In this document: positions 11,030-64,000 of the stretch, piece by piece | Layout of the letters: every line of letters begins with the position of its first letter | Numbering within the stretch: position 1 is the stretch's first letter | Assembly (NCBI GenBank): GCA_023138735.1 | Contig: JAGLOY010000061.1 | Span: 1 to 64,000 of the forward strand | Source of the DNA: Candidatus Aegiribacteria sp. | Lineage (GTDB): Bacteria > Fermentibacterota > Fermentibacteria > Fermentibacterales > JCC-6 | DNA length: 64,000 nt | Direction of reading: 5' to 3' | Notes under the pieces: generated by a model | The model's input: the letters and a program-made list of their open reading frames with translations, nothing else | Databases searched by the model: none | Told to the model about the DNA's origin: nothing | Translations under genes and position numbers: made by a program

Positions 11030-15050
<4,021 letters not shown>

Positions 15051-18927: not shown

Positions 18928-21900
18928 ATGAAAATAAGAACCGTAATTTTGCCATTGATCACGCTGTTTATAGCGAATACAGCTGCTGGAACAGCCGGAG
19001 TACGTGCTCCCACGCTGGTTCCCGTCTATCCCTGGGCAGCTGAATACGCAAGCGAGATGCTCGTTGAACCCGCTGTGTCCTGGAGACTTGTGCATTCCCT
19101 TCGGAGCAGTTTTCTCTGCTGGCGGCTGTTCTATAGATCTTTCCCTGTTTCGACATCGGGCTGTTTTCCCATTGATGTACTGAACCAGCGGTCAATGGAG
19201 TGGACTCTGAGGGACACCTGGGTCACCCTGAACAGCATCAATTGCCTGCGTACAGCAAGGGACGAGGGCTCTCTCATCCCCACTATCTACCTGCCCCTGG
19301 ACATGCCCCCGATACTGGCGGGTGCAATAGGTGAAGGCGGGCAGATAGATATCAGCGGTTACCAGAAGATCACTCTTTCCGGAATAAGCCATTACAGACC
19401 GAACGCGGTTGAAACCGAGGGGCAGAGCCAGTCCCTCTTCCCTGATCTCAAGATGGAACAGGAATTGAGGGTTCAGCTGGAAGGAACCATCGGTGAGAAG
19501 GTTCATGTTAATGTAAACCATGACAGCCAGAGGAGCTTCGGCCCCCAGAGCAGCGTCAGTCTTCGTTACGAGGGGTATGAGGATGAGATAATTCAGAGTA
19601 TCGAGATGGGTGATATCAGCCTTTCCATTACCGGGCCTGAATTCGTTTCGTACAGCATACCCCACGAGGGACTATTCGGAGCCAAGATAGTGGCCCAGGT
19701 TGGTCCCGTTGAATTCACCACCATTGCAAGCCGTGAATCCGGCTCCACCGAATCCTCGGAATTCGTCGGCCAGGCTACTCTGGTGGAAGACAGTATACTC
19801 GACATACATCCTGCCGATAATTACTTCTTCTATACGTCACCCGATTCACAGGTCCAGCCACAGATCGTATCGATCAGGGTTTTTCAGGATGACGATGATG
19901 GAACAAACAATCAGGAAACCGGGGCGGTCGAGGGGGCCTGGTTCATAGAAGGAGCGGACACGACTGGTATCGGTTACTGGGATGAACTTTTGCCCGGCCT
20001 TGATCTGGACTACGTTCTGGTTGATACGGCCACAACAATCCGTTTCAACAGGCCCATCAATAATAATTACAGGATCGCCATCTGGATGGTCACCGCAGCG
20101 GGTGACACCATCGGTAACGCTACTCCCGGTTCGGACTGGAATCTGAAACTTATTAAACAGATCAATCCTCTGCCCAATAATCCGAGTTACCCAACATGGG
20201 ATTACGAACTTCGTAACAGGTATTTCCTTGGAGCTAACAACATCGTTCAGGAGAGCTTCAACTGCGCAATCTATCTTACAAGGTCGGGTGAGGACCCTAT
20301 CCAGACGCAGGGCGAAGACTCTTTCATAAAACTTCTCGGTCTTGATACCAATGGCGATGGTTCTCTTGCAGATGAGGAAAACGCCGTTGACTGGGATAAC
20401 GGTTTCCTGGTGTTTCCCATGGTCAGGCCTTTTACCGATCCCGTCCTCGATGTTACGAACCCTGTTGTATACGAAGAGAACAATCCTCTTCCCGTGCAGA
20501 GCAAATACTTCATTGAAGTAAGCTACAGGGCCGCTTCAACCACGTACTCATTGGGACGTATGGGGATAATACCCGGCAGTGAGAATGTAACTCTTACGAT
20601 GGCCGGGCAGGTAAGAACCCTTGTTAAGGACGTTGACTATACGATTATCTATGAAATAGGACTGCTGACGCTGATGGGGGAGGCCGCCGAGGATGCCCAG
20701 AATCCCAGTAACACTGTGCGCGTTACATTCGAGTACATCCCCCTTTTCGCAGCACAGAAAAAGACACTGATTGGAACAAGGGCCATCTACGAGATAGGAT
20801 CTGATTCGTGGCTGGGAGCCACCGTCATGTTTGAGAGCGCGAGTACACCGGGAGACAGGCCGAGGGTAGGAGAAGAATCCACAAGAACCCTGGTTGCCGA
20901 TATTGATGCACATTTTGAAGCAGAACCGGAGTTTCTAACCAATTTTGCGAACCTTATTCCCGGAATAAACACGGAAGCCCCCAGCAATGCGACGATCTCC
21001 GGTGAGATAGCCATGAGTTTTCCCAACCCGAATGTCGATGGGAAGGCCTATATAGATGATATGGAGGGTGCGGAAACCTCCTTTCCCATAGGCCAGAGCA
21101 GACCCGCATGGCACCTTTCAAGTATTCCCTATTCAGGTGCTTTCCAGGATTATCCTGCTGGAGAAATCCGTTGGTACAATACTTATAGAAGATGGAAACT
21201 TGAAGACATCGTCCCGAATATTATCGGCAGACAGGAGGATAATTATGTAAACAATGTTCTGGAACTTTATTTCCAGCCTTCGGCAAGCAGCAGCAATTCG
21301 TGGGGCGGAATCATGAGGTGTATGGACAAGTACGGGCTGGATCTGTCAACCAAGACCTATCTGAGGATGTACATAAGAGTTACTGGAAGCGCCGCGAATG
21401 CAAATATCTGTCTCGATCTGGGTGAGAGAATAGACGAGGATTCATACTGGCTCGAAAGGACGGCTGGAGAACTCGTGAGAAGGGCCAACGGGGAACTTGA
21501 CACGGAGGATCTTGATTTAAACGGCGATTTGTCTGATGATGAGGACACGGGCCTGGATACCCTCTGGGATGCACAGGAAAACCCCCCTGAAGGAGGTGAT
21601 CCAAATCGGGATAATTACGATTACAACGAGGATAATCCTCCTGCCGTCAGATATGACAGTATAAACGGCACGCAGGGCAATAATGAGCTTGATACAGAGG
21701 ATCTTAACAGAAACGGTGTCCTGGACAGGTCGAATTCGTTCTTCAGGATCAGCATACCTGTAGATGATTCCGAATACATAGTATCCGGACCCAATGCAAA
21801 TGGATGGATGCTCATAGAGATACCGCTATCGGACACAAATGTCGTTTCCGTTCCAGGATTCGTATCGGGGACACCAACATGGGAAAAGATAAGCTACGCA

Positions 21901-24531
21901 AGACTCTGGGTGGATGGTTTTACAAGTGCTGATACTGTACAGATATACGACCTTGAGATCGTAGGTAACAGATGGGAGGAGTCAGGTGTAGCCTATGTTG
22001 ACTCGGTAGGTACACCGGTATCTCCCTGGGAAAAAATGTTCGTTTCCACCGTCAACAATAAAGACAATCTGGAGTACGCCAACGATCCTCCTCCCGGTGT
22101 TGATCCGGGGGAGGATGAGTACGGTGACCCGCGACTCGAGCAGTCCCTTTCTCTTGAGGCCGAGAACATAGCCTACAGACATTACGGCATTGCAACGCAG
22201 AGTTTTTACACCGGGGAGGATTATACCGGATACAGGCAGATAAAGTTTCTGGTGCACGGAGAAGAACATTACGATTCAGAGCTTTTTTTCAGGCTTGGAA
22301 CCGATAGCCTCAATTACTACGAGATAGGGGCCGTAATCAGCCCCGGCTGGCAGACTGTGGACGTAAGCCTTGATGATCTAGTGGATCTGAAGGCGAGGAT
22401 GGTTGAATCGGAACTTGAGTATATCAGTGAGGGCGAACTAAGTGTACGGGGTTCGCCGAATTTAGCCAGAATCATGGAGATGAGCCTTGGACTGCGCAAC
22501 AACTCATTAATCCCATTGAACACCACGATATGGGTCGATGATATAACGCTGCACGAGCCATGGAGTAATACAGGTACAGCGCACAGAATAACCGCCGGTA
22601 TTGATATAGCCGACCTTTTATCCCTGAACGGTGATTACAGAGAGATAGATTCCGATTTCCACGGACTGGGAAGCAGGTCCGGGCAGGGATATACACACAC
22701 CACCTACAACGCAGGGGCAACCATGTACCTGAACCGGTTTACACCGCCACTGTGGTCGCTCTACGCTCCGGCCAATTACTCCTGGTCGCTGAACATCTCC
22801 AAACCTGTATTTCAGTCCGGCTCTGACTACCGCCTCGATGACACCGAATCCTGGAATGAGCGAACTCAGAACAGAAGCTGGAGCACCGGTTTTCAGATTA
22901 GAAAGAACAGCAATGCTGAATCATTGATCGGAAGGTACTTCATAGATCCCTTCAGGTTTGTGCATACCTATTCGCGAGGTTACGGCATGACACCTTCAAC
23001 CCGCGATACTTCCAGCACAGCTAATGGTTCACTTTCTTACGACATCAGTCCCGGGAGGATGCAGCTGCTCAGTCTGCCTGTCATTGAATTCTTCAGGATA
23101 AGACCTTCGCGTGTGAGCTGGTCTTTATCAAGAAGGAACAACTGGGAAACGAGATGGAGTTTTCTCAACGACGATACCGTACAGACCAGAGCAACGATAT
23201 TGAGTACACTCTCATCCACCGGGTCAATTACGTTCACCCCATGGAAGGGACTATCAGCCAGTGGTTCCCTTGGTCTCGTAAGAGATCTGCTGTTCCCATG
23301 GTCCGGGAACCTGGGCGTGAATGTCGGACGGGAGATATCAAGGAATCAGAATATCAGTATTTCTCAGGATATCAATCTGTTTGATTATCTGAACCCAAGA
23401 TTCTCCTTTGATTCAAACTATGGTCAATCCAGGCTTGCTCCCCATACTATCTCAGGCGCTGATTCACTGGGATTGCCAAGGTTTTCGATTTCAGCCACAA
23501 GAAGGATTAATGTCAGAATAGGGCTTGTTCATACTATAAGAAGCCTTGCTGGATTGCGGGATGAAAGGCTGGATGAGGAGGCTGAGACGGGGAGTCCAAG
23601 GTGGTTCCTGATTAAGCTCGAGCGCTGGGCAAACATGATCAATGATCCGAATATCACCTATTCTGAAACTGAAGGCAGTGAATACAGGGATATGGAGTTC
23701 ATTCCCGACTGGCGCTACCAGACCGGTCTCGATCCGGTACTTGATGATGAAATTCCGTGGGACAGAACAAAGGGATGGAACCTGCAGGTGTCCGGAGGAT
23801 TCAGACCGGTATCTTCCATGTCAATCAGACTGGAGTACAGATCATCGGAAAACAAAAATCTCTACTCCGGATTCTGGAATAATCAGAGATCGAAGACCTG
23901 GCCCTCCATTTCCTTTTCATGGTCCGGATTGAACAGGCTTGCAGGATTGAGCAGTATTATAAGGACTGGTTCAGCCAGCTCCGGATACAGCATCGAAACA
24001 AGCGAGAGCGGAAGATTTGAAAGTGATGTCTATACACCGACTACGGAGACTGTAAAGACAAACTGGACGCCCCTTTTCAACATCAGCGTTACTCTCCTGA
24101 ACGATGTTCAGATAACTCTTACCGATAATGTAACAAGAACAGTGATGCAGAGCTTCACCGGAACCCAGGCAAAGACCGAAAGCAGCAACAGCAACATTCA
24201 ACTTAGAATTCAATACTCATTCAGTGCTCCCGGTGGGTTTGCCATACCGTTGCCGCTGCTGGACAGACTTCGGATTAGCTTCCGGAGTGATCTCACAACG
24301 AGTCTTAGTGTAACAAGATCCACAACCAGGAGTGAGTTGTTCGGAAGCGTTGTCGGCGCACAGCTGCAGACCGACAGGGAGGAATGGCGGATAGAACCTG
24401 CACTGAATTACGATTTTGGCACTGTAGTTGCCGGACTTACAGGTATTTTCGGTTGGAAAACCGATAGAGTCAATTCACAGTACAATCAGCGTGATGTCGG
24501 AATGAATATATGGGTAACCATTAATTTCTAA
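18928..24531 (+). CDS. sprA: SprA/Sov-family outer-membrane translocon of type IX secretion
   Basis: 1,867 residues with a signal peptide (about 1-21). Family hallmarks include GGQIDISGYQKITLSG (near 145), the LEGTIGEKVHVNVNHDS region, EDEIIQSIEMGDISL (near 215), YIDDMEGAETSF (near 708), and a C-terminus of repeated barrel strands ending IWVTINF. SprA is the very large beta-barrel pore of type IX secretion in Bacteroidetes, where it usually exceeds 2,300 residues, so this homologue is shorter. Three EF-hand-like acidic loops are visible (near 472, 861 and 922; for example DTNGDGSLADEE). No other type IX genes are in the window. Only GGAG at 18910 precedes the ATG, at a wide spacing of 14. FCB genomes outside Bacteroidetes also carry SprA homologues of uncertain role. 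Confidence 0.85.
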   Translation: MKIRTVILPLITLFIANTAAGTAGVRAPTLVPVYPWAAEYASEMLVEPAVSWRLVHSLRSSFLCWRLFYRSFPVSTSGCFPIDVLNQRSMEWTLRDTWVTLNSINCLRTARDEGSLIPTIYLPLDMPPILAGAIGEGGQIDISGYQKITLSGISHYRPNAVETEGQSQSLFPDLKMEQELRVQLEGTIGEKVHVNVNHDSQRSFGPQSSVSLRYEGYEDEIIQSIEMGDISLSITGPEFVSYSIPHEGLFGAKIVAQVGPVEFTTIASRESGSTESSEFVGQATLVEDSILDIHPADNYFFYTSPDSQVQPQIVSIRVFQDDDDGTNNQETGAVEGAWFIEGADTTGIGYWDELLPGLDLDYVLVDTATTIRFNRPINNNYRIAIWMVTAAGDTIGNATPGSDWNLKLIKQINPLPNNPSYPTWDYELRNRYFLGANNIVQESFNCAIYLTRSGEDPIQTQGEDSFIKLLGLDTNGDGSLADEENAVDWDNGFLVFPMVRPFTDPVLDVTNPVVYEENNPLPVQSKYFIEVSYRAASTTYSLGRMGIIPGSENVTLTMAGQVRTLVKDVDYTIIYEIGLLTLMGEAAEDAQNPSNTVRVTFEYIPLFAAQKKTLIGTRAIYEIGSDSWLGATVMFESASTPGDRPRVGEESTRTLVADIDAHFEAEPEFLTNFANLIPGINTEAPSNATISGEIAMSFPNPNVDGKAYIDDMEGAETSFPIGQSRPAWHLSSIPYSGAFQDYPAGEIRWYNTYRRWKLEDIVPNIIGRQEDNYVNNVLELYFQPSASSSNSWGGIMRCMDKYGLDLSTKTYLRMYIRVTGSAANANICLDLGERIDEDSYWLERTAGELVRRANGELDTEDLDLNGDLSDDEDTGLDTLWDAQENPPEGGDPNRDNYDYNEDNPPAVRYDSINGTQGNNELDTEDLNRNGVLDRSNSFFRISIPVDDSEYIVSGPNANGWMLIEIPLSDTNVVSVPGFVSGTPTWEKISYARLWVDGFTSADTVQIYDLEIVGNRWEESGVAYVDSVGTPVSPWEKMFVSTVNNKDNLEYANDPPPGVDPGEDEYGDPRLEQSLSLEAENIAYRHYGIATQSFYTGEDYTGYRQIKFLVHGEEHYDSELFFRLGTDSLNYYEIGAVISPGWQTVDVSLDDLVDLKARMVESELEYISEGELSVRGSPNLARIMEMSLGLRNNSLIPLNTTIWVDDITLHEPWSNTGTAHRITAGIDIADLLSLNGDYREIDSDFHGLGSRSGQGYTHTTYNAGATMYLNRFTPPLWSLYAPANYSWSLNISKPVFQSGSDYRLDDTESWNERTQNRSWSTGFQIRKNSNAESLIGRYFIDPFRFVHTYSRGYGMTPSTRDTSSTANGSLSYDISPGRMQLLSLPVIEFFRIRPSRVSWSLSRRNNWETRWSFLNDDTVQTRATILSTLSSTGSITFTPWKGLSASGSLGLVRDLLFPWSGNLGVNVGREISRNQNISISQDINLFDYLNPRFSFDSNYGQSRLAPHTISGADSLGLPRFSISATRRINVRIGLVHTIRSLAGLRDERLDEEAETGSPRWFLIKLERWANMINDPNITYSETEGSEYRDMEFIPDWRYQTGLDPVLDDEIPWDRTKGWNLQVSGGFRPVSSMSIRLEYRSSENKNLYSGFWNNQRSKTWPSISFSWSGLNRLAGLSSIIRTGSASSGYSIETSESGRFESDVYTPTTETVKTNWTPLFNISVTLLNDVQITLTDNVTRTVMQSFTGTQAKTESSNSNIQLRIQYSFSAPGGFAIPLPLLDRLRISFRSDLTTSLSVTRSTTRSELFGSVVGAQLQTDREEWRIEPALNYDFGTVVAGLTGIFGWKTDRVNSQYNQRDVGMNIWVTINF

Positions 24532-24661: not shown

Positions 24662-24712
24662 TGCACGAGTGATGCACGATGGCTTGGTGTATAGGTTGAT
24701 TTTGGAGGCTTG

Positions 24713-26503
24713 ATGAACATAAAGATAGGTCAGCTTCTTCTGAATTCGGGGATCATAACGAACAAGCAGCTTGAGAAGGCACTCAGCAAACAGAGTGAAG
24801 ATGGCAACAGGATCGGATACCACTTGGTGAATATCCAGGCCATTTCGGAAGAAGACCTGAATCAATTCCTGGCAAGACAGCAGAGTATCGAAAGCGCAGA
24901 TCTAAATAAATCAGAAATAGATGAGGATATTATTCATCTTATATCAGGCGATATAGCGAGAAGGTATCAAGTTATTCCCATTAGAAGGGAAGGCAGAAAA
25001 CTTATTGTTGCCATGACCGATCCAAACAACCTCTTTGCAATTGATGACCTTAGATTCTCATTGGGGATGGATATAGAACCACACATATGTGCTTCCAGCA
25101 TGGTGAAGAAAACCCTGTCGAAGTATTACCCCGATTCCGAGGCCCTCGTATCCCTCGAGGAAAGCGAGAAAGAGAATAAGGCCAATAGTATACACGATGC
25201 TCTCGCCGATATCGATGACGAAGGTATTATCGAAGACTCCGAAATGCTTATGGGAGACGAAGTCTTTGAATCCATGATTATCCAGGATGATGAAGAAGAG
25301 GATATCGAAGAGGAGGATCTTGATTACAGTATTTCGGATTCTCCGGTGGTCAAGCTTGTAAACAGTCTCATTGCCGATGCTGTAAGGAGGGGAGCAAGTG
25401 ATATCCATTTCGAACCCTTCGAGAGATACGTCAGGGTCAGATTCAGAATCGATGGCGTTCTTCATGAAGTAATGCGCCCAAGCCGGAAATACAGATCATC
25501 CATGGTTAGCCGACTGAAGATTATAGGTGGAATGGATATCGCTGAACGTCATCTTCCTCAGGACGGTAGACAGAAGATACTTGTCGGCGACAAGTTCGTT
25601 GACCTCCGGCTCGCGACCCTGCCTACTCTATTCGGCGAAAAGGTTGAAGTCAGGCTGCTTGACCGCAGTGCCGTTATCCTGGACCTTGAAAAACTTGGAT
25701 TCGAAGAAGAACCTCTCAAAGAATTCAGAAAAGGCATCCATAGACCTTTTGGAATTGTACTGGTTACCGGACCCACCGGATGCGGTAAAACAACCACTCT
25801 GTACTCAGCGCTTACAGAGCTTAACGACATCGGTGTAAACATAATGACTGCAGAGAATCCGGTTGAATTCAATCTGAAGGGTGTCAACCAGGTCCAGATG
25901 AATGCCGATGTCGGATTGACCTTCGCCAATGCTCTGCGAGCTTACCTCCGCCAGGATCCGGACATTATCATGGTTGGAGAAATCCGTGACAAGGAAACCA
26001 GTGAAATTGCGATTAGAGCAGCTCTGACAGGTCACCTGGTGCTTTCAACTACACACACAAACGATGCTCCCAGCACTATTAACAGGCTTATAGACATGGG
26101 AACTGAACCCTTTATGCTGAGTACGTCGATTGTGTGTATCGCTTCTCAGAGACTTATCAGGAAGATCTGTACCAAATGCAAAACTCCAATCCATGTTCCG
26201 GAGGATGCCTTCGTCGATGCTGGAATTGACTTTGAACGTTTTAAGAATATAGAGCTTTATGAGGGTACCGGCTGTTCATACTGCAACAAAACAGGTTACA
26301 AGGGCAGAATGGGGATTTTCGAAGTCATGCGTGTCGATGAAGATATTCGCCAGCTGATAGAGGGGGATGCCAACAGTTTAGAGATCGAAAAAGCCGCACT
26401 TGAAAAAGGTATGGTGAACCTGAGAGAATCAGCTCTCAGGAAGCTTGAAGCCGGACTTACAACTTTCGATGAAGTCCTGCGCGAAACAATCTCGAACGAA
26501 TAG
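24713..26503 (+). CDS. pilB: Type IV pilus assembly ATPase PilB (first copy)
   Basis: 596 residues. An N-terminal MshEN-type domain (residues 1-150; KIGQLLLNSGIITNKQLE), an acidic linker (DDEEEDIEEEDLDY near 195), then the GspE/PilB motor with GASDIHFEP, Walker A GPTGCGKTTTLY (near 352), Walker B IIMVGEIRD, and a four-Cys zinc site (CTKCKTP, then CSYCNKTGYKGRMG). It powers pilus extension at the inner membrane. An ATG directly after GGAGG is preferred over the overlapping TTG at 24710. First gene of a pilB-pilB-pilT-pilC-pilS-pilR run. It could instead serve a type II secretion-like system; the pilT and pilin neighbours favour pili. Confidence 0.9.
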   Translation: MNIKIGQLLLNSGIITNKQLEKALSKQSEDGNRIGYHLVNIQAISEEDLNQFLARQQSIESADLNKSEIDEDIIHLISGDIARRYQVIPIRREGRKLIVAMTDPNNLFAIDDLRFSLGMDIEPHICASSMVKKTLSKYYPDSEALVSLEESEKENKANSIHDALADIDDEGIIEDSEMLMGDEVFESMIIQDDEEEDIEEEDLDYSISDSPVVKLVNSLIADAVRRGASDIHFEPFERYVRVRFRIDGVLHEVMRPSRKYRSSMVSRLKIIGGMDIAERHLPQDGRQKILVGDKFVDLRLATLPTLFGEKVEVRLLDRSAVILDLEKLGFEEEPLKEFRKGIHRPFGIVLVTGPTGCGKTTTLYSALTELNDIGVNIMTAENPVEFNLKGVNQVQMNADVGLTFANALRAYLRQDPDIIMVGEIRDKETSEIAIRAALTGHLVLSTTHTNDAPSTINRLIDMGTEPFMLSTSIVCIASQRLIRKICTKCKTPIHVPEDAFVDAGIDFERFKNIELYEGTGCSYCNKTGYKGRMGIFEVMRVDEDIRQLIEGDANSLEIEKAALEKGMVNLRESALRKLEAGLTTFDEVLRETISNE

Positions 26504-26515
26504 CGGAGGTTATTC

Positions 26516-28327
26516 TTGCTCAGCAGACTTGGTATGATGCTTATGGAATCCGGGTTGGTGACAAGTGATGAAATCAACCAGATAGTGACCGAGTACGGAC
26601 CTGGCGAGATCGAACTTGCCGACCAGCTGGTATCGATGGGCATTGTTCCTGAAGATCTTATCACCGAATATCTAGCCGAGATCTATTCCGTTAAACCCGT
26701 ATTTCTCAACGAGATGGATCTTGATCCCGCCCTTGCCGAAACGATACCGGATGAGACTGCCAGGAGATATCTCCTGGCTCCCTTCAAAGATGAAAAGGAC
26801 TACCTGCATATCGGTATGGGCTCTCCGGGGGATCTTTACGCGATCGACGATGTGAAATTCGCAGTTGGTAAAGGAGTCATTGCCTATGCTTCGGCTCCAT
26901 CTGCCGTACGAAGAGCCCTGAATGACCTGTACGGCAAGCAGGATTCCCTCGTTTCGGTAAAAGATCAGCTGGACGATTACGAGGAAGATCTTGATGATCT
27001 GGAGGTAGTGCAAACACTTGGATTCGAGGGGGAAGAGGAAGTAGAGCTCGACGAAGGGGATCTGGAGGACGAATATGCAAACCTCTCCGAAGGTCCGATA
27101 GTAGCATTTGTAAACTCGATCATTACCAAAGCTGTTCTTACTGAAGTCAGTGATATTCATATAGAGCCCTACGAGAAGTACCTCAGAATAAGATACAGGC
27201 GGGACGGCAAATGCTTCGTGGTCAGAAAGCTTCCAAAGAAAGTGCAGCCTCAAATCATAAGCAGACTTAAGATAATGGCCACTATGAATATAGCAGAGAA
27301 AAGAAAAACTCAGGATGGTCGAATCAAGGCCATAATCGATGGGAGGTCAATCGATTTCCGTGTAAGCGCGGTACCCACCATCAACGGAGAGAAAATCGTT
27401 TTGCGTATCCTTGACAGGGGCAGCCTGGAGCTCGACCTCCGGGAACTGGGTTTTCCCGAAGATGCACTTAAAGTTTTTCTTCAGGGAGTCAGTTCTCCAT
27501 ACGGGATCGTTCTGGTAACAGGCCCTACTGGAAGCGGCAAGACAACCACTCTTTATTCTGCTCTGAGCTCACTGAATACGGCTAATGTTAACATTCATAC
27601 AGCTGAAGAACCGGTGGAGTACAGTATTGAAGGTTTAACTCAGTCTCAGATAAATTTCAGTAAAGGTTACGATTTCGCCGCAGCTCTGCGAGCCATTCTC
27701 AGGCAGGATCCGAATATAATTATGGTGGGTGAGATAAGGGACTTCGAAACTGCCAGTATAGCTATAAAAGCTGCACTCACAGGGCATCTGGTTTTCTCCA
27801 CCATACACACGAATGATGCTCCCAGTACTGTGAACAGACTGATCGATATAGGTATCAAGCCATTCCTGGTTGCATCGGCAGTTAGAACGATTATGGCTCA
27901 GAGACTTGTCAGAAAGATCTGCAAATACTGCAAGAAGCCGCATGAATACTCGGATGAAGAATACAGGGCAGCAGGTGTTGACCCCACTGAAATGGTTGGC
28001 CATATAACATATAAGGGTAAGGGGTGCAGTAAATGCAGCGGTTCCGGTTACAAGGGAAGAACAGGTCTTTACGAAGTGCTTCCAATTGATAAGAATGTAA
28101 AACAGTCCATTATCGAAAAGGTAACCGCCGGGCAGCTGCGCGTTATGGCTGTTCAGAACGGGATGAGAACGCTGAGAATGGATGCTGTTGCCAAGCTGAA
28201 GGCGGGAGTTACGACGCTTGAGGAAGTTACAAGGGGAACCGCTGAGGATGACAGGGAAATACTGAGAGCCGAAGAGGAATTGAAGAGCAGAAATGCTCCG
28301 CAGAAAGAGGAAGGACATTCAGCCTGA
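26516..28327 (+). CDS. pilB: Type IV pilus assembly ATPase PilB (second, tandem copy)
   Basis: 603 residues, same layout as the preceding gene: MshEN-type N-domain (LGMMLMESGLVTSDEIN), an acidic linker (EEDLDDLEVV and EEEVELDEGDLEDEY), VSDIHIEPYEKYLRIRYR, Walker A GPTGSGKTTTLYSAL (near 335), Walker B IIMVGEIRD, and the zinc-binding CKYCKKP ... CSKCSGSGYKGRTG. The start is TTG at 26516, six bases after GGAGG; the first in-frame ATG is six codons in. The two copies differ clearly outside the motor motifs, so this is an old duplication, not a recent one. Both keep the catalytic residues I can see, so both are likely active. Confidence 0.88.
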   Translation: MLSRLGMMLMESGLVTSDEINQIVTEYGPGEIELADQLVSMGIVPEDLITEYLAEIYSVKPVFLNEMDLDPALAETIPDETARRYLLAPFKDEKDYLHIGMGSPGDLYAIDDVKFAVGKGVIAYASAPSAVRRALNDLYGKQDSLVSVKDQLDDYEEDLDDLEVVQTLGFEGEEEVELDEGDLEDEYANLSEGPIVAFVNSIITKAVLTEVSDIHIEPYEKYLRIRYRRDGKCFVVRKLPKKVQPQIISRLKIMATMNIAEKRKTQDGRIKAIIDGRSIDFRVSAVPTINGEKIVLRILDRGSLELDLRELGFPEDALKVFLQGVSSPYGIVLVTGPTGSGKTTTLYSALSSLNTANVNIHTAEEPVEYSIEGLTQSQINFSKGYDFAAALRAILRQDPNIIMVGEIRDFETASIAIKAALTGHLVFSTIHTNDAPSTVNRLIDIGIKPFLVASAVRTIMAQRLVRKICKYCKKPHEYSDEEYRAAGVDPTEMVGHITYKGKGCSKCSGSGYKGRTGLYEVLPIDKNVKQSIIEKVTAGQLRVMAVQNGMRTLRMDAVAKLKAGVTTLEEVTRGTAEDDREILRAEEELKSRNAPQKEEGHSA

Positions 28328-59891: not shown

Positions 59892-60896
59892 TTGCGTACG
59901 AGGTTTATTGATCTAGTTTCTATTGAGGTTTACGGTGGGAAGGGCGGAGATGGTATCGTCTCTTTCCGAAGGGAAGCGTATGTCTCAAAGGGTGGCCCAA
60001 ACGGTGGTAACGGGGGTGCAGGTGGCGATGTTATTCTTGTAGTTGATCCGAAACTTACTACACTCGCGGATTTCAGAAACGGAGCCATCTTCAGGGCTGA
60101 AAATGGAAGATCCGGCGGTTCGGCCAACAAGACAGGCAGAGGGGGGAGGGATGAAATACTCAGAGTTCCTCCAGGCACTGTAGTTTGTGATTCCGATACC
60201 GGAGAGCAGCTCGGTGACCTAACGGAAGCCGGACAGGATCTGCTGGTTGCTCCCGGAGGAAAGCCAGGGAAAGGAAATGCCTTATTTGCAACTCCAAAGG
60301 TAAGAGCACCGCGGAAGTTCACGAAAGGGGAGCCCGGCACCTACAGGAAAATCCGTCTGGAACTCAGTCTAATAGCTGACGCTGGTCTCATCGGGGTTCC
60401 AAATGCCGGAAAATCGACCATTCTGTCCACTGTAAGTGCTGCGAGACCAAAGATCGCGGGATACCCTTTCACCACACTGAACCCGGCTCTTGGAATGGTG
60501 AAAATGGCAAAGGGTTTCAGTTTTGTGCTGGCCGATCTTCCCGGCCTTATAGAGGGCGCCAGTGAAGGAGTAGGCCTCGGATTGCGGTTCCTCAGGCATG
60601 TTGAGCGGAACAGAATACTCATATTCATAGTTGGAGCCGGACTGGAGATGGACCCTTCGGAGCAGTACAGAACCGTCCGTGAAGAAGTGATGACGTACAA
60701 ACCTGATCTGGAAGAGCTGGATGAAATAGTCGTACTTTCCAAAGCCGATCTAATCAATGAAGAAGAGAAAATGACCATTCTTGAAACGCTTCCGGAAGGA
60801 ACAATGGTTATATGCGCTGTTACCGGCCTGGGAATGGAAGAATTTCTTAGAACGATAGCAGCTTCTATACGCCGGCTCCGGAATGCTGACAAATGA
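59892..60896 (+). CDS. obgE: Obg/CgtA GTPase of ribosome assembly
   Basis: 334 residues. Gly-rich Obg domain (1-158; GGKGGDGIVSFRREAYV, GGPNGGNGGAGGDV) and G domain with G1 GVPNAGKST (near 168), G2 PFTTLNP, G3 DLPGLIEGAS and G4 SKAD. No extra C-terminal domain. It works in large-subunit maturation and stress signalling. The start is TTG at 59892 after AAGGGGAAA. The stop overlaps the dprA start as ATGA. Confidence 0.95.
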   Translation: MRTRFIDLVSIEVYGGKGGDGIVSFRREAYVSKGGPNGGNGGAGGDVILVVDPKLTTLADFRNGAIFRAENGRSGGSANKTGRGGRDEILRVPPGTVVCDSDTGEQLGDLTEAGQDLLVAPGGKPGKGNALFATPKVRAPRKFTKGEPGTYRKIRLELSLIADAGLIGVPNAGKSTILSTVSAARPKIAGYPFTTLNPALGMVKMAKGFSFVLADLPGLIEGASEGVGLGLRFLRHVERNRILIFIVGAGLEMDPSEQYRTVREEVMTYKPDLEELDEIVVLSKADLINEEEKMTILETLPEGTMVICAVTGLGMEEFLRTIAASIRRLRNADK

Positions 60897-61990
60897 ACAG
60901 CGCTATCCTGTTATCATCCTGGGATAAAGTAAGCAGGGAAGATCTCAGAAGGCTTCTGCGCAAACACACACCTGACGAATCTGTTGAGATACTGAAAAGG
61001 GAAATCCCCTCAGGAATGCCGGATAAAGAAAAGTTCGAACGGATGACTGTTTCCGCTGCGGCACAGTGTATGAAGGCTGTTATCTACGGAAATGATGATT
61101 ATCCCGATATTCTGATCAACATACCGGATCCGCCTGTCGTATTGTTTTACCTGGGGAATTTTGAAGGGTTTCTTACCATGCCCGCGATTGCGGTTATAGG
61201 ATCAAGACGCTGTACTACTTACGGAAGGAAGGTTGCCAGAACACTTGCGCGTGAATTTGTAAGAAACGGTGTTGCAGTAGTCAGCGGCCTGGCGAGAGGT
61301 ATAGATGGTGAAGCGCATAGAGGTGTTGTCGAAGCGGGCGGTGTAACGATGGCAGTGCTTGGGAACGGTCTTGATTCCTGTTACCCCCCGGAGCATGACC
61401 GATTGTCGGAGAGTATTCTCGAAAAGGGAGTTCTTCTCAGCGAATATCCCCCGGGCACGGAACCTGCCAGGTATAGATTTCCCGAGAGGAACAGGCTCAT
61501 AAGCGGTTTTTCAAGAGGAGTGGTAGTAGTGGAGGCGGGCAGGAAAAGCGGAACGATGATTACAGTGAATACTGCACTTGATCAGGGCAGGGATGTATTT
61601 GCTGTACCCGGAGAAGTGACGAGAGCCCTTTCAATGGGGACGAATATGCTGCTTCGGGATGGGGCTGGAGTAGTCATCACTGCGGACGATGTTTTAGAAC
61701 CCCTGGGGCTGGCACACGATGCGGAAAGCTCGAGGGATACTTACGAACCGGAGAACGATACCGCAAAGGCGATACTTGAAAACCTGTCAATTGAAACTCT
61801 CCATTTTAACCAGCTGCTAAGATTGGTTGGGGTTGCTACCGCTGTGCTGCAGTCTGAATTGCTGAGTCTTGAGATGGCCGGTGTTGTTTCCCAGCACCCG
61901 GGGAAGTTCTATTCGTTAGGCCCGGCCCCCGGTGCCCAACCCCAGGATGCTGATTATTTCAAGGACGGTTTCGGTCGGGGTGATACCTGA
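60893..61990 (+). CDS. dprA: DNA-processing protein DprA/Smf
   Basis: 365 residues with the Rossmann-like core: IGSRRCTTYGRKVA (near 102), VSGLARGIDGEAHRG (near 132), NGLDSCYPPEH, FPERNRLISG (near 198) and EAGRKSGTMITVNTAL. A C-terminal winged-helix domain follows, ending FYSLG. DprA loads RecA on incoming single strands in natural transformation, which fits with type IV pili. The last 22 residues (PAPGAQPQDADYFK...) extend past the usual end and lie antisense over aroK. Starts in the obgE stop. Confidence 0.94.
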   Translation: MNSAILLSSWDKVSREDLRRLLRKHTPDESVEILKREIPSGMPDKEKFERMTVSAAAQCMKAVIYGNDDYPDILINIPDPPVVLFYLGNFEGFLTMPAIAVIGSRRCTTYGRKVARTLAREFVRNGVAVVSGLARGIDGEAHRGVVEAGGVTMAVLGNGLDSCYPPEHDRLSESILEKGVLLSEYPPGTEPARYRFPERNRLISGFSRGVVVVEAGRKSGTMITVNTALDQGRDVFAVPGEVTRALSMGTNMLLRDGAGVVITADDVLEPLGLAHDAESSRDTYEPENDTAKAILENLSIETLHFNQLLRLVGVATAVLQSELLSLEMAGVVSQHPGKFYSLGPAPGAQPQDADYFKDGFGRGDT

Positions 61991-62452
61991 TGTGTCTATC
62001 CGGTTGGGTAGAGAATTGTAGTGCTCATGCCTTTTCTTCAGCAGTTCAATGAATATCCTGTCGTTACTTGCAAGGGGTCTGTTTCCGTTCTGAGATAATC
62101 TCCGTTCAAGGAGTATATCATCTGACGCGGTAAGAGTGATTATGATCCCATTATTCCTGACCGCGAGGAGATTATTGTTTTCCAGCAGGCTGCCGCCTCC
62201 TAGGGCCAGGACTATACTCTCTGCGGTTGAGAGAAGTGAATTCAGTGCTTCCGATTCCAGCCTTCTGAATTCATCTTCATTAAAACGGCTGAAAATATTG
62301 GAAATGCTCATGGAAGCCTTCTCCTCTATAAGGGTATCAAGATCGTGGAAAGGTAGACCCAGCAGTATCGCCAGGAGTTTTCCTGTGGTTGATTTACCGG
62401 AGCAGGGAGGTCCGGTAACAAAGATCGATCCGTTTCCAGTCAGGCTGTTCAT
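61916..62452 (-). CDS. aroK: Shikimate kinase AroK
   Basis: 178 residues. Walker A GPPCSGKST (near 14-22), DLDTLIEE (Asp of the shikimate site), FRRLESEAL (Arg), LALGGGSLL (near 82) and the lid RPLASNDR region, all as in AroK. It phosphorylates shikimate on the way to chorismate. It converges on dprA and the two ends overlap by 75 bases. Confidence 0.92.
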   Translation of the reverse strand: MNSLTGNGSIFVTGPPCSGKSTTGKLLAILLGLPFHDLDTLIEEKASMSISNIFSRFNEDEFRRLESEALNSLLSTAESIVLALGGGSLLENNNLLAVRNNGIIITLTASDDILLERRLSQNGNRPLASNDRIFIELLKKRHEHYNSLPNRIDTSGITPTETVLEIISILGLGTGGRA

Positions 62453-62756
62453 TGAATGATGATAATCAAATAAGCCGGTGCCGCAAGTTTTGAAGCTGAA
62501 ATCTAGAAGCCCAGTAATAGTTGGGGTCGTATCTTGAATTTCGGCATTCGTTGATGTTTTAACAAATCAAATGCCAAAATTCAAGATACGACCCCGATAG
62601 ATGTTAGGTCCGGCCCTAATTTTGCCGGTTGACGGATTACTACTGGTGATGTATTGACTTCAACGTCTGTTAAGATGGAGAGATAAATATACTCTTGATT
62701 CTGATATCCTATTTCTGCTTTTACAGATCGGTATTGCCGGTAAATCGGAGAGAATT
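62453..62756. other. 304-base intergenic region with a REP-like palindrome
   Basis: No gene was found between aroK and the HU-fusion gene. The region carries the long inverted repeat at 62523-62595 and a smaller CCGGC/GCCGG pair near 62611-62627. I saw no clear promoter with normal spacing for the HU-fusion gene. Confidence 0.6.
62523..62595. repeat. REP/RAYT-type long imperfect palindrome
   Basis: Two 26-base arms (62523-62548 and 62570-62595) are complementary at 25 of 26 positions around a 21-base centre. Each outer end is GGGGTCG (or its complement CGACCCC). This length and the GGGG-starting ends are typical of REP palindromes moved by RAYT (TnpA-REP) transposases; no transposase gene is in the window. 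It lies outside genes, between aroK and the HU-fusion gene. Confidence 0.75.
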
Positions 62757-63287
62757 ATGACAAAGGATGAACTTGCTGGAGTTGTAGCTGAAAAAACCGG
62801 CGTTAGCAGGAAAGTGGCAAGATCGGTACTGGCAACCCTGCTTGACACCATTACTGAGCAGCTTTGCAACGGAGAAATAATTTATCTGAGAGGTTTCGGC
62901 TGTTTCGAGACAAAAGAGGGAAGAAGAAGAAGAGCACGTGATCCGCAGGGAGATGGAATAATAGAGATACCTCCTCGGATCAGACCAGTCTTCAGACCCT
63001 ATAATGACCTTAAGGATGCAGTACAGGAGAAACTCGGGAAAAGGGTTACCGTTGATTTTCTTTGTCTGAGCGCAAAAAATGCTCTAACGGTGTCCGTGGT
63101 AGGAAAATTCAACAACTGGAATCAGGCAAGCAACCCGATGCAGCGCCTTCCCGACGGAAGCTGGGTTGGGGAGATTCGGGCTGTTTCAGGGCAGACATTG
63201 AAATATCAGTACTGGATAGACGGCACACTCGAAAACGATCCAGCGTTTCCTGCCGACAGTAAGGGCAATACAGTGAGGCAGATATAA
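62757..63287 (+). CDS. HU/IHF-family DNA-binding protein fused to a CBM48/AMPK-type glycogen-binding domain
   Basis: 176 residues. Residues 1-95 are an HU/IHF domain: TKDELAGVVAEKTGVSRKVA, IIYLRGFGCFETKEGRR and a beta arm of RRRARDPQG..., then IRPVFRPYNDLKDAV. After LGKRVTVDFLC the rest (about 98-176) is an E-set domain of the glycogen-binding type: VSVVGKFNNWNQASNPM, LPDGSWVGEI, LKYQYWIDGTLENDP, with the conserved W and K/Y positions. The reading frame is continuous with no stop or frameshift between. GGAGAGAA precedes the ATG. The stop overlaps the next start (TAATG). HU domains bend DNA; the second domain binds alpha-glucan or acts in protein contacts. I do not know of a described fusion of this type. 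Confidence 0.85.
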   Translation: MTKDELAGVVAEKTGVSRKVARSVLATLLDTITEQLCNGEIIYLRGFGCFETKEGRRRRARDPQGDGIIEIPPRIRPVFRPYNDLKDAVQEKLGKRVTVDFLCLSAKNALTVSVVGKFNNWNQASNPMQRLPDGSWVGEIRAVSGQTLKYQYWIDGTLENDPAFPADSKGNTVRQI

Positions 63288-64000
63288 TGGTTTCGGGAAC
63301 TAAACACCGCTCACCCAGAAGAGCAAGAAGGAAAAAACCCAGCAGGATAAGAAATGTTATCCTGGTTTCAGTGCTTTTCCTTGGTGCATCATTTATTGCT
63401 GTACTTGCGATACCTGCACCCGGGATTGCTGGTGAAATACGCCGGTTCCTTTACGGGAAACTGGGATGCCTTTCCCTTCTTATACCGCTTTTTCTCTTTC
63501 AGACAGGAGCATGGCTTCTTGATTTCAAATTCAGGAAGACCGGGTTTAGAATACTGTCGGGTATCGCTGTCACAGGCTACTTCTTCACCGCTGTGCTTGA
63601 TTTCGTCATAAGCAGAAGGATATACGCATTTCATAATATTCCAGGCGGCAGTATTGCAGGAACCCTTGGAGATATTCTCCTTCCCGTTATCGGAGTCGCA
63701 ATAACATTCCTGATTCTTTTTACGGCGTTTGTGGCTTCACTTGTTGCTTTTACAGGATGGGATATCAGCAGTGATTTTAAGTCGATCGCCGAGGGGCTAC
63801 AAAGATTATTAGATAGAAGTGGCTCTAGAAAGAAGAAAGAGAAGCCAGGAAAAAGAAAGATATCTGAAACTGAAGAACCAAACGCATGGTCGCGGATTAA
63901 TACGGTTGAATCCATACCCATGATACCTTTAGTGTCGGATGTTGCTAAGCCGGATGAAAACGATTTATCGGCAGAGCGTATAAAGAGCAGAAAATCGAAG
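63287..64000 (+). CDS. ftsK: FtsK/SpoIIIE-like DNA translocase, N-terminal part (cut by window edge)
   Basis: The frame opens with ATG at 63287 in the previous stop codon (TAATG) and stays open to the end, so only about 238 residues are visible. A basic N-terminus (SPRRARRKKPSR) is followed by four membrane segments (about 25-45, 60-80, 88-108, 122-150; for example LLPVIGVAITFLILFTAFVA) ending TGWDI, then a charged Lys/Glu-rich linker. This is the four-helix plus linker layout of FtsK-family proteins that move DNA during chromosome segregation. The motor domain would lie outside. Assignment rests on layout and GTLGDILLP-like spacing only. Confidence 0.65.
   Translation, partial: MVSGTKHRSPRRARRKKPSRIRNVILVSVLFLGASFIAVLAIPAPGIAGEIRRFLYGKLGCLSLLIPLFLFQTGAWLLDFKFRKTGFRILSGIAVTGYFFTAVLDFVISRRIYAFHNIPGGSIAGTLGDILLPVIGVAITFLILFTAFVASLVAFTGWDISSDFKSIAEGLQRLLDRSGSRKKKEKPGKRKISETEEPNAWSRINTVESIPMIPLVSDVAKPDENDLSAERIKSRKSK

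Follow-up and report, generated by a model that had tools for sequence, protein, structure and literature searches.

The window, by which we mean the whole stretch of 64,000 nucleotides analysed, contains near its end a single open reading frame of 176 codons (62757-63287, forward strand), with an ATG start and no internal stop, that joins an HU/IHF domain to a CBM48-type E-set and whose stop codon overlaps the start of ftsK. The nearest named relatives of the window genome are Aegiribacteria, Sabulitectum, Fermentibacter and Hyd24-12 (Candidatus Fermentibacterota). The genes and domains at the locus are:

60893..61990, forward strand: dprA, further upstream (PF02481, E 3.1e-75)
61916..62452, reverse strand: shikimate kinase gene (aroK), divergent upstream neighbour (PF01202, E 3.4e-34)
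62757..63287, forward strand: HU-E-set fusion gene, 176 aa (open reading frame; full-length copy in 33 of 42 Fermentibacterota genomes)
62757..63035, forward strand: HU/IHF DNA-bending domain, residues 1-93 (PF00216; invariants in 31 sequences; PDB HU matches over residues 1-90)
63042..63284, forward strand: CBM48/AMPK-type E-set, residues 96-176 (PF02922; AlphaFold2 pLDDT 96.4; Foldseek matches 1z0n and 4yef)
63287..64000, forward strand: N-terminal part of ftsK, which continues past the window (weak FtsK_4TM match; motor domain in the same open frame)

As aroK is divergent, the operon probably begins with the fusion gene; the same divergent neighbour was found upstream at two further loci (L033 and L050), and a consensus search upstream of the fusion gene returned no sigma-70 type site. 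The shikimate kinase gene and dprA converge, with an overlap of 75 nt (window 61916-61990). Between aroK and the fusion gene lies an inverted repeat with two 26-nt arms that are 96% complementary (window 62523-62595). The arm occurs 13 times in the genome, versus 0 in a reversed control, and a 300-aa REP/Y1-transposase-like ORF on contig C173 (L115; transposase assigned by eye only) has a copy on either side; the repeat is thus apparently a MITE-like relative of this element.

An HU domain fused to a CBM48-type E-set

The Pfam profile for HU (PF00216, Bac_DNA_binding) matched residues 1-89 (E 7.9e-23; 81 bits versus a cut-off of 22.4) and CBM_48 (PF02922) matched residues 104-157 (E 2.9e-7; 31.2 bits versus a cut-off of 22.4), which bears out the first-pass annotation of this DNA, where an HU/IHF domain at residues 1-95 and an AMPK/CBM48-type E-set at residues 98-176 had been proposed to share one unbroken frame. 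The AMPK1_CBM profile (PF16561), also suggested there, remained below threshold in the window sequence (20.0 bits versus 26.8) and matched 28 of the 31 family members at E <= 0.01. Among NCBIfam models, the N-terminal half was matched by those for HU/IHF and the C-terminal half by those for GlgB, with all scores far below these protein-specific cut-offs.

The predicted structure divides in the same way. In an AlphaFold2 model of the monomer, built with 31 relatives, the helices, sheet and arm of HU occupy residues 1-93, and a beta E-set does follow residue 95, as the earlier reading expected, extending from residue 96 to 176. The E-set modelled alone reached a mean pLDDT of 96.4, compared with 88.8 for the full-length model, whose pTM of 0.57 leaves the relative orientation of the domains uncertain. 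The HU part ends in a helix (83-93) and the E-set opens with a strand (96-103), so that the predicted linker is two residues long. When compared with the PDB using Foldseek, HU/IHF structures ranked first for the full chain, while the E-set was closest to AMPK-beta glycogen-binding domains (1z0n and 4yef, TM about 0.75-0.77) and also matched GlgB.

Distribution and conservation

Among 42 genomes of the class (Candidatus Fermentibacterota), 33 encode a full-length fusion (a count that includes G004, with an early in-frame stop), as do 23 of the 24 genomes that are >= 90% complete, so that the search for the same domain order suggested at first pass recovered it across Fermentibacterota. Three further copies are incomplete: that of G025 is divided between the ends of two contigs, that of G044 is truncated where its contig stops, and that of G040 is frameshifted. 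The length of the protein is 176-178 aa throughout, and comparisons of close pairs give a dN/dS of about 0.03-0.15 for the HU half and the E-set half alike, indicating purifying selection on both domains. The fusion is a real gene that an entire phylum of uncultured bacteria has retained. That two genes had been joined by a frameshift in sequencing or assembly, a concern raised in the first-pass annotation, is practically inconceivable: 31 distinct intact sequences, obtained in many independent assemblies, read through the junction, dN/dS is well below 1 in both halves, and the isolated broken copies seen in two draft genomes (L041 and L058) are the reverse of what a false join would give. These two interruptions, an early in-frame stop in L041 and a frameshift in L058, where ftsK is broken too, are probably sequence errors.

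Beyond Fermentibacterota, profile searches of 231 genomes from four other phyla (4, 133, 17 and 77 genomes) returned HU only or nothing at the thresholds applied, the searches of 17 and 77 genomes showing little alone as they used a strict E-value and no positive control. Genomes of 84,980 species were also scanned with short motifs that must match almost exactly, so that distant fusions could escape; the scan recovered only the Fermentibacterota fusions and three plain HU matches. In a plasmid search, no record spanned 80% of the fusion protein. One 98%-complete genome (G005) lacks both the fusion and ftsK; because dprA is absent as well, the entire segment may have been lost or may be missing from the assembly, and this apparent co-loss was set aside as evidence.

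Coupling to ftsK

The first-pass annotation recognised the fusion and overlooked the strongest clue, its phylum-wide overlap with ftsK: across the phylum, the two genes of an intact locus are spaced by -4 to +1 nt. The usual spacing, as read at the stop codon, was also found at the G021 locus and two others. In the window genome the ftsK open frame comprises 705 aa, with the FtsK motor domain in the same frame just past the window (G000:C151:64445-64981), and the orthologue of the downstream gene at L031 carries the FtsK alpha, motor and gamma domains. An FtsK N-terminal region without the fusion was seen in none of the genomes examined; in G008 and G010 the motor is present and the fusion absent, the contig breaking before the upstream site. 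In several loci ftsK is followed by lolA. In the four genomes from other phyla in which both genes were located, HU lies on a different contig from ftsK. The phylum-wide overlap with ftsK points to a role in chromosome segregation or division.

DNA binding by the HU half

HU is among the best-known bacterial DNA-bending proteins, and the HU half of the fusion, to judge from its profile scores, is a canonical HU, as PF00216 (81 bits) far exceeds the HU-HIG profile PF18291 (28.1 bits). The arm residues R58, R59, R61 and P63 are invariant in 31 of 31 sequences, with P63 corresponding to the proline that intercalates in HU/IHF. Together, the invariant arm and the canonical score suggest that a dimer of the fusion is likely to bend DNA. 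The same genome encodes a separate, stand-alone gene of the ordinary HU type (G000:C63), and the fusion would therefore be free to specialise.

Loss of most of the canonical glucan site

The residues that AMPK beta1 uses to bind sugar include W100, K126 and W133 among others. W100 and W133 have been named as key sugar-binding residues, and starch binding by the plant CBM48 protein PTST was abolished when both equivalent tryptophans were mutated together (PMC4339375). In a profile alignment, the equivalents of W100, K126 and W133 are residues 121, 151 and 158 of the fusion. Tryptophan is retained at position 121 in 28 of 31 family sequences (it is lost in L005, L023 and L024), while position 151 is lysine in 4 of 31 and position 158 is tryptophan in 1 of 31, and the E-set thus lacks the canonical set of AMPK sugar residues. 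Invariant across the 31 sequences are instead M128, the motif LPDGSWxxE (131-136 and 139) and R174; part of the motif may be structural. As the W133 and K126 equivalents are unconserved while LPDGSWxxE is invariant, the most economical reading of the alignment is that the E-set has been retained for something other than canonical glucan binding.

The genomic context was considered as well. The window genome encodes GlgB, which was considered as a possible source of the E-set; the two are 35% identical over 55 columns. A GH57 gene, to which the first-pass annotation drew attention, does lie in the same window (11030-13066) but is ~50 kb from the fusion and outside its operon, and was dropped as an operon link. 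A second non-enzymatic E-set protein may be encoded at L112:1438-1818 (G000:C24), where a 126-aa predicted lipoprotein gave a weak CBM48-like match (18.8 bits, below cut-off).

Comparison with known HU and E-set proteins

Residues 1-93 of the fusion align end to end with HU (PF00216; 1hue, 1b8z and 5lvt), and the arm RRxRxP with its proline is kept. In contrast to HU/IHF proteins, the fusion adds a folded C-terminal E-set of 80 residues and is paired with ftsK, in a genome that has a stand-alone HU-type gene. The HU-HIG proteins (PF18291: HU with a wHTH, an Ig or a Gly-rich motif), whose clades were reportedly described by Burroughs et al. in 2017, similarly carry a C-terminal accessory domain that is Ig-like in some members. 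However, although PF18291 exceeded its cut-off on the fusion (28.1 bits versus 26.2), it did so over residues 2-55 of the HU half only; the score to PF00216 is far higher and the second domain is a CBM48-type E-set, and membership of HU-HIG was rejected.

C-terminal tails that are long and charged have been described for other HU proteins, Lys-rich in the HU_acti_C of Actinobacteria and mixed acidic and Lys in the HU_bacL of Bacteroidetes (PMC5683647). These share with the fusion an HU core followed by an extension, but the extension of the fusion is a compact predicted beta domain. With the AMPK-beta glycogen-binding domain and the CBM48 of GlgB, SEX4 and PTST the fusion shares a recognisable sequence and the E-set fold (TM about 0.7-0.8), but it differs in lacking the main sugar residues and in attaching the E-set to a DNA-binding domain. 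HU proteins with C-terminal extensions are thus already known, whereas none of those found joins a canonical HU to a CBM48-type E-set in an operon with ftsK. The literature searched, of incomplete coverage, yielded no description of an HU-CBM48 fusion and no biochemical study of any member of the family.

A putative partner of FtsK in chromosome segregation

The standard motor for clearing the division site of DNA is FtsK, for which, to our knowledge, no dedicated HU-type partner has been described. Our preferred reading, to which we would give a probability of roughly 0.5, is that the fusion is a dimeric HU-type DNA-bending protein made together with FtsK, in which the E-set serves as a docking module and which contributes to chromosome organisation or segregation at division. 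The protein would be a specialised HU paralogue; the fold of its N-terminal half and the conservation of the arm suggest that this half forms dimers and bends DNA as HU does. Directly after the last HU helix, the CBM48-type E-set, with most of its glucan site lost, would act as a repurposed protein-interaction module, two of which would be displayed by the HU dimer. Since coupling of the gene to ftsK extends across the phylum, we consider it likely that the protein is both made and active with FtsK; translational coupling would keep its synthesis in step with that of the motor. It may then act with FtsK on the chromosome at division by organising or marking DNA near the septum. Alternatively, it could help to load or regulate the FtsK translocase, or provide DNA architecture for the FtsK-gamma/XerCD/dif step. 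The fusion, its predicted folds, its conservation, the coupling to ftsK and the loss of canonical sugar residues are observed; from these we infer DNA binding, dimerisation and contact with FtsK or a divisome partner, and consider chromosome handling at cell division more likely than sugar sensing. Against a partnership with FtsK, coupling of neighbouring genes can serve dosage alone.

A bolder proposal, which we make tentatively and expect to be wrong rather more often than right, is that a dedicated nucleoid protein partners FtsK through its repurposed glycogen-binding-type E-set, as a phylum-wide, HU-based adaptor in terminal segregation of the chromosome; at its boldest, the proposal has the protein still sensing glucan and tying division to energy reserve. 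The presence of an HU-E-set gene coupled to ftsK across a phylum makes an HU-FtsK partnership directly testable, and would represent the reuse of a glycogen-module fold in a chromosome context.

The E-set could instead be only a cap or oligomerisation unit that alters HU-DNA architecture, for example through filaments or bridging, with the adjacency of ftsK reflecting expression timing only. E-sets are commonly packing or dimer modules, and the near absence of a linker between the two domains would suit such a role, but the coupling to ftsK in every intact locus would be left unexplained, and we regard this alternative as rather unlikely. The E-set as a dimer or partner-binding module had been offered as an option at first pass, and fits the data better than the link between nucleoid state and glycogen level proposed alongside it. 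If the E-set bound glycogen or maltodextrin, it could connect nucleoid state or FtsK output to the carbon reserve; its closest relatives in sequence and fold are the AMPK-beta glycogen-binding domain and the CBM48 of GlgB, an enzyme encoded in the genome, and the retention of W121 in most members leaves room for some glucan binding. We nevertheless consider a glycogen sensor decidedly doubtful: the W133 and K126 equivalents are rarely kept, the double tryptophan mutation abolished starch binding in PTST, three members lack the first tryptophan too, and the operon has no glycogen gene. Finally, the fusion might set the level of FtsK, by HU-type binding upstream or by translational coupling, with the E-set sensing a ligand or partner. 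Its probable position as first gene of the operon and its overlap with ftsK would permit such autoregulation, but the DNA binding of HU domains is largely independent of sequence, making this a very improbable explanation.

Other genes in the window

Elsewhere in the window, a protein of 1867 aa with an SprA_N domain (Pfam E 3.6e-14), a gliding/type 9 secretion relative, is encoded at 18928-24531, and is followed at 24710-28327 by a pair of neighbouring genes for type II/IV secretion ATPases, both with an MshEN domain.
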